Shown piece after piece: positions 16,765-20,854 of a stretch of DNA of 64,000 bases. The position numbers were made by a program, and so were the translations under genes. Position 1 is the stretch's first letter; each line of letters opens with the position of its first letter. The stretch covers positions 496,001 through 560,000 of the forward strand of contig NZ_JAFIWA010000001.1 of NCBI RefSeq assembly GCF_018588945.1. The letters run 5' to 3'. The notes under the pieces were generated by a model that had not been told where the DNA came from, searched no databases, and was given only the letters and a program-made list of their open reading frames with translations. Source of the stretch: Microbacterium flavescens (GTDB lineage: Bacteria > Actinomycetota > Actinomycetes > Actinomycetales > Microbacteriaceae).

Positions 16765-19620
16765 CTACTCGCCAGCGGGGTCGTCGAGGAGGCTCCCCGC
16801 GCGAACGGCGGCCTCGGTGCGCGACGACACCTCGAGCTTGCGCAGCAGAGCGGTCACATGGACGCTCGCGGTCTTCGGGCTCATGTAGAGCCGCGCGCCG
16901 ATCTGCCGATTCGTGAGGCCCTCGCGCAGCAGGAGCAGCACGTCGCGCTCACGCGGGGTGAGGAGGCCGCCCCGCGAGCCCCCGCCGGTCAGGCGTGCCT
17001 GCAGCTCGCGCGCGCGCCGGACGTCGCGCGCGGCTCCGATGCTCCGGGCGACGCCCAGTGCTCGCTCGGCGGCCGCTCGCGCGGGTGCGCGCTCGCCGTC
17101 GGCCGCGAGCGCTGCCGCATGGTGCAGGATCACCGGTGCGAGCATCCAGCGATGCACCGAGGCGTGGTCCGCGGCGTCGACCGCACGCGACCAGTTATCG
17201 GCCGTCGGCGCGGCGTACGCGTCGGTCACGGCGCGCCAGCGTGCCGTGCGCGGAGTCGGCGGCATGATCGCGAGCGCCTCGTGTGCGAGGCCGACGGCCT
17301 CGTCGACGCGGGCGCCGGCAGCACGCCGTGCGGCGGCGATCTCGCACGCCGCGAACAGCGGGTACATCGCCTCGGAGGCGGGGAAGTCGTTCGAGAGGTC
17401 GTCGGAGAGAGGCCGCAGCTCGTCCCACGCGACGTCCTGCTCGCCGCGTGCGACCGCCAGTTCGGCGCGGGCGATCCGGAGCCCGCGCGTCTCCTCCTCG
17501 CTGAGCTCGGGGTGGCGCACGAGATCGGCATGCACGTCGAGCAGCGAGGCCGCGTGGTCGAGCCGGTCGGCGAGCACCTCGAGGCGGACGAGCTGACGCA
17601 GTCCGTAGGCGGCGAAGTCGAGGGCCGGTGCCAGACCGAGCGTGCGCTCTGCGAACGGGCGGGCGTCGTCGAGCGCTCCGACGGCGGCCAGCGAATCGGC
17701 GAGATTCCCGCTGATGAGAGTTCCCCAGGTGCGTCCGTGCTGCAGCTCCTCGGCTCGAGCGACACCGTTGCGACCGAGCTCGGCCGCCTCGGCGAACCGA
17801 CCCACGCGATGCAGCCCGTCCACGGTGTTGAGCGTCAGACGGAGCTCCGCTTCGGGCGAGACGAACGAAGTCGACCGCACGAAGTCGCGCAGGTCGAGGG
17901 GGACCCGCTCGTCGCCCGCCTCGATCGCGTCGACGGCGAGCGACGAGCGCACATAGGCCTCGAGATCGCTGTCGCCGAGCTGGGCGGCGAAGGCCCGCGC
18001 CCGCGCGGCGTGCGCCGCGCCATCGGCGAACGCCTCGGACGGGAGACCGCCGAGGTTGCCGTGGACCCGCGCCCTCGCCGCGATCGCAGCCGCATCCTCG
18101 AAGGCCGCGAGCAGGTCGAGGGCTTCGAGTCCGGCGGCGATCGTCTCGGTGACGCGCCCGCTCGAGACGGCCTGCGAGTGCGTCAGCAGCAGGAGCTCCC
18201 CGCGTCCGCGTGCGTCATCGGGGCCGAGGAGCGACTCCGCGATGTCGAGAAGCGGGCGGATGCGCGACGTGAGACCGCCCCGATCGGCGGCCTCGGCGGC
18301 GGCGATGACAGCGCGTGCGCGCGTCAGGCCGCTGCGCGCGTCGGCGTCCGGCACGAGCGGCCAGAGCTCGACGAGCCGTTCCAGGATCGCCGACTGCGCG
18401 CGGAACCCGAAGGTCGCGCGGGCGTCGTCCAGCGCCGCGAGGTAGGCGTCGAAGGCCAGAGCCGGCTCGTGCGCGGCGAGCCAGTGCCGTGCGGCCTCGC
18501 TCGCCACCGAAGGATCGGCCGCGAAGTCGAGGCGCTTCGCATACGCGGCGTGCAGCCGGTCCTTCTCGCCGGGGAGGATCTCGTCGGCGACGGCCTCGCG
18601 GCTCAGGGCATGGCGGAATCGGTAGGCCTCGTCGGCGACCGTGATGATCCCGCCGGACGCCGCCTCGCGCAGTGCGTCCTCGAAAGCGTCGCCGGGGATC
18701 CCCAGCTCGTCGGCCACGCCGGCGAGCACGCGGTGATCGATGCTCTCGCCGATGGCGAGGACGCGCAGCACGCGCTTGGTGCCTTCGCTCATGCGGTCGT
18801 ACCGTGCGAGCACCACGTCGCGGAGCGAGTCGGCCAGCTGACCGTCGGCGAGGCCGAGCAGCTCTTCGATGAAGAAGGGGATGCCGTCGCTGCGCTCGAT
18901 GAGGCGGTCCAGCTCCCGGGCCTCGGCCATGCGTCCGCGACCTTCGACGGCCATCTGCGCCACGGCATCGCGGGGGAGCGGCGTGAGCTCGATGCGAGTG
19001 GCGAGGCGACCGCGGTCCACGTCGTGAAGGAACCCGCGCAGCGGATGCCCGCGTGGCACGTCGTCGGTCCGGTAGGTCAGGATCAGGAAGCGACGTCCTG
19101 ACGTGCGGTAGCGGAGGATCGCACCGAGCAGGCCGAGGGTCGAGGTGTCGACCCAATGCAGATCCTCGATGACGACGACGAGAGGACGCGTCGCCGACAG
19201 CTCCTCGAAGACGAGGTCGACGGCCTCGTGGACTCGCGCGGGGGAGAGATCGGGTTCGAGGCCGGCCCCGAGCCCGACGGGCAGGAGGCCGGCGAGGGTC
19301 CGGGCGACCGGGGCGATCGCGGCATCCCACTCCTCGGCGCCGACCGCGGCGGGCAGCTGCCGCAGGATCTGGCGAATCGGGACGAAGGGCGCGATGTCCT
19401 GTGACTCGTAGCAGGAGCCGACGGTCACGACGGCTGCGTCGCCGATCGTCGACAGGAAGTCCGTGACCAGCCGCGACTTGCCGATCCCCGCTTCGCCGCT
19501 GACGACCACGGCGCGTTGACCGCCGGCGGACAGCGCGAAGGCCTCGGCGAGGCGCTGCATCTCGGCATCCCGTCCGACCAGGCTCGTCCGCGCGGGGGAT
19601 TCCATACTCGATAGTGGCAC
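16765..19620 (-). CDS. LuxR-family transcriptional regulator with N-terminal AAA+ ATPase (LAL type)
   Basis: 951 residues, usual for large ATP-binding LuxR regulators. Walker A GEAGIGKS is at 42-49, a Walker B-like VVVIEDLHW segment follows near 155, a long helical repeat region spans about 350-870, and a C-terminal LuxR helix-turn-helix begins LTPRERDVLLLLREG near 888. The GTG at 19620 is preferred because GGAAGG lies six bases upstream; an internal ATG at 19605 has no such site. It is 32 bases behind a small gene and probably in its transcript. The signal and regulon are unknown. Confidence 0.9.
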   Translation of the reverse strand: MPLSSMESPARTSLVGRDAEMQRLAEAFALSAGGQRAVVVSGEAGIGKSRLVTDFLSTIGDAAVVTVGSCYESQDIAPFVPIRQILRQLPAAVGAEEWDAAIAPVARTLAGLLPVGLGAGLEPDLSPARVHEAVDLVFEELSATRPLVVVIEDLHWVDTSTLGLLGAILRYRTSGRRFLILTYRTDDVPRGHPLRGFLHDVDRGRLATRIELTPLPRDAVAQMAVEGRGRMAEARELDRLIERSDGIPFFIEELLGLADGQLADSLRDVVLARYDRMSEGTKRVLRVLAIGESIDHRVLAGVADELGIPGDAFEDALREAASGGIITVADEAYRFRHALSREAVADEILPGEKDRLHAAYAKRLDFAADPSVASEAARHWLAAHEPALAFDAYLAALDDARATFGFRAQSAILERLVELWPLVPDADARSGLTRARAVIAAAEAADRGGLTSRIRPLLDIAESLLGPDDARGRGELLLLTHSQAVSSGRVTETIAAGLEALDLLAAFEDAAAIAARARVHGNLGGLPSEAFADGAAHAARARAFAAQLGDSDLEAYVRSSLAVDAIEAGDERVPLDLRDFVRSTSFVSPEAELRLTLNTVDGLHRVGRFAEAAELGRNGVARAEELQHGRTWGTLISGNLADSLAAVGALDDARPFAERTLGLAPALDFAAYGLRQLVRLEVLADRLDHAASLLDVHADLVRHPELSEEETRGLRIARAELAVARGEQDVAWDELRPLSDDLSNDFPASEAMYPLFAACEIAAARRAAGARVDEAVGLAHEALAIMPPTPRTARWRAVTDAYAAPTADNWSRAVDAADHASVHRWMLAPVILHHAAALAADGERAPARAAAERALGVARSIGAARDVRRARELQARLTGGGSRGGLLTPRERDVLLLLREGLTNRQIGARLYMSPKTASVHVTALLRKLEVSSRTEAAVRAGSLLDDPAGE

Positions 19621-19652
19621 GTCGACCTTCCGCGGGAGGAGGGCGAGGGAGC

Positions 19653-19838
19653 TCAGGCCGTCTGCAGGCGGGTCCGCAGCCGGCGCAGCGCGCCGCGGAC
19701 GAAGAGGCGGGCGGTGGCGGGAGCGGTGCTCCGGTCTGCGGCGGCGCGCTCATCGCTCCGGCGACGCAGCTCGGCCATGGCGGCGACCTCGCGCTCCTGC
19801 TGGCGGGCCATCGTCTCGAAGTAGAAGGTCGTGTTCAT
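19653..19838 (-). CDS. 61-residue basic small protein preceding luxR
   Basis: ATG 19838 has a good AGGAG ribosome binding site seven bases upstream, which supports it as a real gene. The product starts MNTTFYFETMARQQEREVAA, then is Arg/Ala/Glu-rich and likely helical (about 10-35 and 45-60), with pI clearly basic and no membrane segment. It precedes luxR on the same strand. CCTAAGG-type boxes lie 58 to 150 bases upstream. I do not recognise a family. Confidence 0.6.
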   Translation of the reverse strand: MNTTFYFETMARQQEREVAAMAELRRRSDERAAADRSTAPATARLFVRGALRRLRTRLQTA

Positions 19839-19895
19839 GATGTGCTCCTGAGGTGGGGCCGGTGTCCGGCGGGGTTCGATGACACAGACATTCCT

Positions 19896-19988
19896 CTCTA
19901 AGGAGCACCCCGCGGATCGGCACTGTGCCCAGGTTCCAGCGGCTCCGGGGCCTTAGGCGTCGCACCCGGCCGCAGTCCGCCTAAGGCG
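19896..19988. promoter_or_regulatory. Three CCTAAGG/CCTTAGG boxes upstream of the small gene-luxR unit
   Basis: CTCTAAGGAG at 19896-19905, GCCTTAGGCG at 19950-19959 and the palindrome CGCCTAAGGCG at 19978-19988. The last two are exact inverted copies of one another over ten bases, spaced 18 apart. The arrangement suggests a regulator-binding cluster, plausibly for the adjacent LuxR protein. Confidence 0.5.
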
Positions 19989-20005: not shown

Positions 20006-20041
20006 CGAAGCGGCCCGTCCCTCCCGGGACGAGCCGCTTCG
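20006..20041 (-). terminator. Terminator after aqpZ
   Basis: CGAAGCGGC at 20006-20014 pairs with GCCGCTTCG at 20033-20041, with mostly paired bases inside and an apex of about four bases. It lies 15 bases beyond the aqpZ stop on the minus strand. The outer arms resemble those of the katG terminator. Confidence 0.7.
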
Positions 20042-20056
20042 GCGTTGGTGCGAGGG

Positions 20057-20854
20057 TTACTTGACGCGCGCCTCCGCCGGGGCGGGCGGCACGGACCCCT
20101 TCGACTCGAACAGCGCGCGATGCAGGAATCCTGCGAGCAGGCCGCCGACGAGCGGGAACACGATGAACACCCACAGCTGGCCAAGGGCCGCCGGCCCGCC
20201 ATAGATCGCCGTGGCGATCGAGCGCGCCGGGTTGACCGACGTGTTGTCGATCGGGATCGACGCCAGGTGGATGAAGGTGAGCGTGAGGCCGATCGCCAGA
20301 CCCGCGAACCCGGCGGTTCCGCGCTGGGGGTGCGTCACGCCGAGGATCACCATCAGGAAGACCGCGGTGAACAGGATCTCGGCGATGATCGCCGCACCGA
20401 GGCCGAAGCCGCCGGGCGAGTGCTCGCCGAAGCCGTTGCTCGCGAAGCCGCCGTCCTGCGCGGTGGTCAGCCAGTCGGCGGGGCCGAAGATGCCGATGAG
20501 CACGATGAGCGTCGTGGCCAGCGCGCCGCCGACGATCTGCGCGATGAGATAGCCCGGGGTGTCCTTCCACGGGAAGCGTCCCGCGGCGGCGAGCCCGAAG
20601 GTGACGGCCGGGTTGAAGTGCCCGCCCGAGATCGGTCCCCAGGTGTAGATGCCGGCGAGCAGCGTCAGGCCGAAGGCCAGCGAGACGCCGATGAAGCCGA
20701 TGCCGAGCGATGAGCCGTTCGACCCGGTGCCGAAGTCGGACGCGAACAGGGCCGCGCCGATCGAGCCGAAGACGAGCAGGAACGTTCCGAGAGCCTCCGC
20801 GACGAGTTTGTTCGCGGTGCTGGGCGTGCTGAGCGTGGTGGTGGTGTCAGGCAT
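20057..20854 (-). CDS. aqpZ: Aquaporin Z-like water channel
   Basis: Major intrinsic protein family channel, 265 residues, six membrane helices plus two re-entrant loops. The two pore motifs are NPA at 81-83 (SGGHFNPAVTFG) and NPA within NPARS at 208-212. The Arg after the second NPA is the selectivity-filter arginine. The spacing and lack of the glycerol-facilitator Asp after the second NPA favour a water channel. A GGAAAGGGG ribosome binding site precedes ATG 20854. Confidence 0.93.
   Translation of the reverse strand: MPDTTTTLSTPSTANKLVAEALGTFLLVFGSIGAALFASDFGTGSNGSSLGIGFIGVSLAFGLTLLAGIYTWGPISGGHFNPAVTFGLAAAGRFPWKDTPGYLIAQIVGGALATTLIVLIGIFGPADWLTTAQDGGFASNGFGEHSPGGFGLGAAIIAEILFTAVFLMVILGVTHPQRGTAGFAGLAIGLTLTFIHLASIPIDNTSVNPARSIATAIYGGPAALGQLWVFIVFPLVGGLLAGFLHRALFESKGSVPPAPAEARVK

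Follow-up and report, generated by a model that had tools for sequence, protein, structure and literature searches.

A conserved promoter associates a small basic protein with a LAL-type LuxR regulator in Microbacterium and other actinobacteria

What does a tiny reading frame do in front of a large LAL regulator, and what purpose do the sequence boxes ahead of it serve? The minus strand of the 64,000-nucleotide stretch of Microbacterium flavescens DNA analysed here (the window) holds an aquaporin gene (20057-20854), a box-bearing intergenic region, an ORF of 61 residues and a LAL regulator, a member of a family termed poorly studied in the available text of PMC3282765. An earlier note on this DNA had listed three CCTAAGG-type boxes, the small ORF and the luxR gene behind it, and the sequence and ORF list confirm all of these features on the minus strand. 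The ribosome binding site claimed for the 61-residue ORF is AGGAG at 19849-19845, the luxR gene begins, with its GTG, 32 bases beyond the end of that ORF, and two of the boxes, GCCTTAGGCG (19950-19959) and CGCCTAAGGC (19978-19987), are indeed exact inverted copies over ten bases. A long inverted repeat seen by eye 3' of the aquaporin gene (20006-20042, GAAGCGGC...GCCGCTTC) looks like the aquaporin terminator, which would separate that gene from the small-gene/LAL unit. The features of the locus are:

16765..19620, minus strand: LAL regulator with AAA_16 NTPase, long middle (sensor-like) region and C-terminal LuxR/GerE HTH (ORF, Pfam)
19611..19616, minus strand: CACTAT, perhaps the -10 of a leaderless second promoter for the LAL gene (precedes the ATG at 19605; nAnnnT enrichment)
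19653..19838, minus strand: small basic protein of 61 residues (ORF; 98% identical in the relative G095; relatives have diverged small ORFs in the corresponding position)
19845..19849, minus strand: ribosome binding site AGGAG of the small ORF (sequence)
19879..19882, minus strand: predicted transcription start (from leaderless small ORFs with the same promoter)
19888..19893, minus strand: -10-like hexamer GAATGT (alignment of 66 sequences; leaderless relatives start about 7 bases downstream)
19898..19903, minus strand: CCTTAG element, consensus CCTYAG, inside box 1 (spacing kept in 65 of 66 genus loci scored, and in the window)
19916..19933, minus strand: conserved dyad and probable operator of the LAL (genus alignment; genus consensus ATAGGGCATCCGYCCGAT)
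19952..19956, minus strand: upstream CTAAG element, consensus CTRAG, inside box 2 (position -22; genus CTRAG count)
19978..19988, no strand assigned: third box, CGCCTAAGGCG (common to the close relative G095; without conserved counterpart elsewhere)

The regulator has 951 residues if it starts at the GTG at 19620 and 946 if it starts at the ATG at 19605, and is of large LAL size (about 900 residues) in both cases. In ATG numbering, residues 9-175 match the AAA_16 NTPase (Pfam E 1.5e-25), with the Walker A motif GEAGIGKS, and residues 882-936 form the GerE HTH of LuxR proteins (Pfam E 3.1e-16). It is not a MalT equivalog by the NCBIfam model (33.7 bits vs a cut-off of 537, the match lying in the HTH only), nor a PAS-LuxR protein, there being no PAS domain among the nine Pfam families that match at E <= 1. 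Against known anti-phage systems in PADLOC it gives only local HTH or P-loop matches (best 2.6e-5), and the small protein gives none; a reading of the locus as a defence system thus has no support. In 53 of 75 genus loci the LAL ATG is preceded, at a distance of 5-8 bases, by a hexamer of the form nAnnnT, compared with 9% in shuffled sequences, which suggests separate leaderless transcription of the LAL gene from a second promoter.

Counting alone does not make the boxes significant: 0.84 occurrences of CCTAAGG are expected in the window and two are found, a count reached in 22 of 100 shuffles. They rise above chance because they are conserved at set positions, and this is true of two of the three. 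In the alignment of genus promoters (81 loci available, 15 dropped, 66 scored), a dyad, ATAGGGCATCCGYCCGAT, is followed by 12 bases, the element CCTYAG and a -10-like hexamer. In 65 of the 66 the distance from the dyad start to the CT[CT]A of CCTYAG is exactly 32 bases, and the bases G, C.GAT, CT.A and A...T are invariant, in that order, in all 66 aligned sequences, that of the window included. Box 1 (19896-19905), which has only CCTTAG in common with boxes 2 and 3, contains this element. Box 2 corresponds to a CTRAG element upstream of the dyad, whose first base, counted from the dyad start, is at -21 or -20 in 22 of 65 genus loci and at -22 in the window; CTRAG is found somewhere within the 110 bases upstream in 36 of the 65 loci (200 shuffles: mean 9.1, maximum 18). 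Box 3, at -51 from the dyad start, has no conserved counterpart in the 65 genus loci checked. The most conserved operator-like element, the dyad at 19933-19916, was absent from the list of the earlier note. The window's copy of the dyad departs from the consensus on its upstream side, with CCT in place of ATA, and retains the palindrome GGCACAGTGCC. Within the dyad, base matching is clearly above expectation at one pair only, positions 7/12 (45 of 63 vs 35.7). At loci L130 and L133 the dyad sits between extended inverted arms, CTGAGGTAGGCC and GGCCTACCTCAG, which exceed the length found at most of the loci seen.

The hexamer has an invariant A at its second and an invariant T at its last position in the 66 aligned sequences, in keeping with the pair of bases best conserved in -10 hexamers. 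In several relatives (L117, L119, L125, L130, L133 and L135) the ATG of the small ORF follows the hexamer after about 7 bases, a distance that fits a leaderless mRNA and supports the predicted start site. From this start site it follows that the dyad is centred near -43.5, the position typical of a class II activator; the promoter has no conserved -35 element.

A model built from the sequences of the 66 genus promoters (R1) was run on the same 149 genus genomes in which the LAL regulator was sought. At E <= 1e-4 it matches 73 of them, comprising all 70 that carry the LAL regulator (E <= 1e-80) and 3 of the 79 that do not. The presence side of this count is partly circular, as most of the positive genomes trained the model; the near absence from LAL-negative genomes is not. 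Among the three exceptions, G091 and G037 have a LAL-like gene adjoining the site, and G002 has none in the 7.5 kb fetched around it. The G002 site (promoter match 1.9e-10) has a shortened spacing, with neither a LAL gene nor a typical small ORF nearby and no LAL at 1e-80 in the genome, and is perhaps a remnant. Positive genomes have one to three strong sites, usually one, although weak further targets could escape the model.

Of 84 promoter copies in the genus, 10 were seen by eye to stand directly before the LAL gene without a small ORF (L042, L060, L061, L068, L069, L073, L078, L079, L083 and L086), and the remaining 74 precede a small ORF. A script assigned an ORF to 79 of the 84; six of the small-ORF picks among the 74 were corrected by hand, and that at L102 was picked wrongly by the script. 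The small ORF of L097 continues into the LAL gene, and those of L092 and L099 are little like the other small proteins. The promoter and small ORF lie just downstream of the LAL gene at L090-L092 and divergent from it at L093; at L094-L096 there is no LAL gene in the 7-kb stretch fetched and one elsewhere in the genome. These varied arrangements imply that the promoter goes with the small gene or with the LAL gene itself, rather than with one fixed operon. LAL genes at L077, L084 and L087 have no such promoter nearby. One LAL gene (L100 and L081, G130:C5) is preceded by two copies of the promoter, separated by about 330 bases and each accompanied by a small ORF, which suggests a tandem duplication of the small gene.

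The small proteins have no clear Pfam, NCBIfam or PHROGs family. The 61-residue protein itself matches nothing in Pfam, NCBIfam, PHROGs or PADLOC, and among 24 members searched against Pfam, NCBIfam and PHROGs and 20 more searched against Pfam and NCBIfam, no family matches more than one member (best E 0.0023). BLAST at E <= 0.001 in the 149 genus genomes finds it only in its own genome and in G095, where the copy is 98% identical; the remaining relatives were recognised because of their position and promoter. At the best 30 LAL loci (L009-L038) an ORF of 56-110 residues with a ribosome-binding-site-like stretch is always found in front. Many genus small proteins begin MYEHPYL or MFEHPYL, followed by EQEQ.ERA.ERRRF, and that of the window begins MNTTFYF, resembling a group with MNDTTF. 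In a broad set of 88 the length ranges from 31 to 121 residues, with a pI above 9 in 73 and a median pI of 10.6. The protein of the window is predicted to form two helices, residues 3-38 and 41-60 (AlphaFold2 from the single sequence, mean pLDDT 88.5, pTM 0.44). A similar short C-terminal tail follows a variable linker in many genus small proteins (CTPHAA, CEPVAAR, CVSHAA or LAGPSS, at L012, L025, L041, L053 and others). Carriage of the unit by plasmids is unsupported, as two relatives of the small protein used as queries matched nothing.

Small ORFs arise by chance as well (14.3% of 2600 random positions have one by the criterion used for the loci outside the genus), so that sequence, place and promoter have to be taken together as the basis of the argument. 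That the small ORF might be only a leader peptide, or a chance ORF that tunes LAL translation, is in keeping with its place 5' of the LAL gene in most loci and with its varying length (31-121 residues). Close pairs (16 of 17 usable), however, differ at codon positions 1, 2 and 3 by 122, 133 and 223, an excess at the third position which supports translation under mild constraint; the N-terminal helix region is recognisable in diverged copies, and some promoter copies with a small ORF lie downstream of the LAL gene, divergent from it, or in a fetched stretch without one. We therefore consider this explanation very improbable.

The unit extends beyond the genus. At E <= 1e-4 the promoter model matches 63 of 299 genomes of the family (26 of 85 genera, its own included), 21 of 297 of the order (8 of other families) and 43 of 296 of the class (33 sharing the class only). 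All 65 sites fetched outside the genus were examined. A qualifying small ORF is present at 59 of them and missing at 6, to be compared with the 14.3% of random positions; a LAL-like ORF lies downstream at 50, elsewhere only at 4, and is not in the stretch at 11. With a profile made from 72 small proteins of the genus, the predicted ORF comes out on top in 42 of the 65 loci, where these targets make up 184 of 4361 ORF entries. In the distance between dyad and CTYA, 43 of these loci agree with the genus, 14 exceed it by one base and 8 fall short of it by one; CTRAG occurs 12-26 bases upstream of the dyad in 20. The comparison with relatives proposed in the earlier note, namely a box and ORF upstream of LuxR-LAL genes, has largely come out in its favour, since CCTYAG and a small basic ORF precede the LAL gene in the majority of loci of the genus and also at loci belonging to further families and orders of the class; conservation of the small ORF holds for most loci and fails in one LAL clade that has the promoter only. 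Promoter, small ORF and their linkage to the LAL gene are thus conserved.

At L121 and L138 the product of the first ORF past the promoter is small and membrane-like and carries a DGY..(I/V)P motif (MIFFVALLVVLA..., MWIFIVLGAIG...), possibly a different target. At L210, in a 7.3-Mb class-level genome, a promoter match near 1498 (1.5e-7) precedes a leaderless ORF of 397 residues that is MFS-transporter-like by eye, with no LAL gene in the locus. Viral carriage is likewise unsupported, as a search with the exact promoter pattern found no match; this pattern catches 65 of 230 fetched loci and misses the divergent copy of the window.

The architecture of the regulator recalls MalT of E. coli, a STAND-type LuxR activator that also has an N-terminal NTPase and a C-terminal LuxR HTH. 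A difference is that positive genomes of the genus have one to three promoter sites each, one of them usually before the small-protein gene, and that the dyad is unlike the MalT boxes. MalT multimerises with its inducer and the multimer binds its boxes cooperatively, according to the available part of PMC4381067. PAS-LuxR regulators such as PimM recognise CTVGGGAWWTCCCBAG, a GGGA/TCCC dyad in the -35 region of regulated promoters (PMC9774167), and a GGG/CCC dyad in that region is common to both systems. The dyad of the present unit, AT.GGG......CCC.AT, has a wider centre and flanking CTRAG and CCTYAG elements, however, and the regulator has AAA_16 and no PAS match; its target is a small gene, whereas PAS-LuxR targets are biosynthesis genes. 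SCO0877 and SCO7173 of Streptomyces coelicolor are LAL regulators too, and SCO7173 shares an overlap with the 3' end of another gene, whose putative product is a hypothetical protein of 89 residues (PMC3282765); in the available text the two regulators were studied for phosphate and antibiotic effects, with no such promoter or small-gene work reported.

On balance we favour the reading that the LAL regulator, bound to the dyad near -43, switches on the small-protein gene as well as its own, the small protein being the main output. As a STAND-type ATPase the regulator would oligomerise on a signal, as MalT does, and occupy the dyad near -43.5, with the flanking inverted CTRAG and CCTYAG elements perhaps serving as further half-sites. 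It would then bring RNA polymerase to the promoter, for all that this has no conserved -35 element, and so give small protein and, where the LAL gene is downstream, more LAL; basal LAL may come from the second leaderless promoter. We infer this binding, oligomerisation and activation, and likewise an effector role of the small basic helical protein, which might bind some partner, be it a nucleic acid, the ribosome, the polymerase or a membrane. As there is usually one strong site per positive genus genome, the chief output is probably the small protein, and its basic, helical character suggests an acidic binding partner.

Might the dyad instead be bound by another regulator, the LAL gene being merely carried in the operon? 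Co-variation between HTH and dyad is absent beyond general kinship (partial Mantel test on 63 loci, dyad vs HTH given AAA, r 0.018, p 0.40), and CCTYAG is not known as a LuxR site. The promoter, however, is found in 70 of 70 LAL-positive genus genomes and is absent from 76 of 79 LAL-negative ones (E <= 1e-4), it precedes the LAL gene even in the clade without a small ORF, and its dyad is similar to the PAS-LuxR site. All this makes a foreign regulator unlikely.

A tentative alternative of more substance is that the small protein acts mainly on the LAL regulator, whose sensor or ATPase domain it would inhibit in a feedback loop or serve as a cofactor, much as MalY, MalK and Aes keep MalT inactive. 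The "cofactor or signal protein" of the earlier note is one option. Small gene and LAL gene are tightly linked across the class, and over 60 loci the divergence of the small protein follows that of the three LAL domains (simple r 0.81-0.90), with a partial correlation of 0.51 (p 0.002) for the sensor-like region given AAA and HTH. Two 100-residue LAL windows, 310-409 (0.17, p 0.005) and 610-709 (0.14, p 0.01), correlate with the small protein and not with the promoter core or dyad, although both are weak and picked from ten. There is also a precedent, in that protein partners can hold MalT inactive, the inhibitory proteins binding its inactive form (available part of PMC10427625). Against this, the strongest LAL window, 710-809, gives about equal correlations for the promoter core (0.29) and the small protein (0.31) and one of 0.20 for the dyad, a pattern that looks like kinship rather than contact; moreover, the regulator has very few targets, and on this view none of the outputs found here would remain for it. 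Promoter copies before small ORFs without a LAL gene in the fetched stretch fit a target or effector better than a cofactor, and we retain the small protein as output of the LAL regulator as the preferred reading. A broader form of it, in which a class-wide actinobacterial module has a STAND-type LuxR ATPase driving essentially one gene, whose fast-evolving small basic product would be both response and feedback partner, and in which the operator would be a conserved array of half-sites, is rather doubtful at present.

LAL regulators and LuxR dyads are known already; among the best matches listed, mainly from open-access literature, there is no description of the pairing with a small protein without clear family, under a promoter found across several orders. 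For a group of LAL regulators whose relatives extend over several families and orders of the class, the analysis predicts an operator, a start site and a target, and it marks a group of small proteins without a clear family in the libraries searched. The highly conserved promoter shared by many actinobacterial genomes suggests an overlooked regulatory unit, of which a tiny protein may be the main product.
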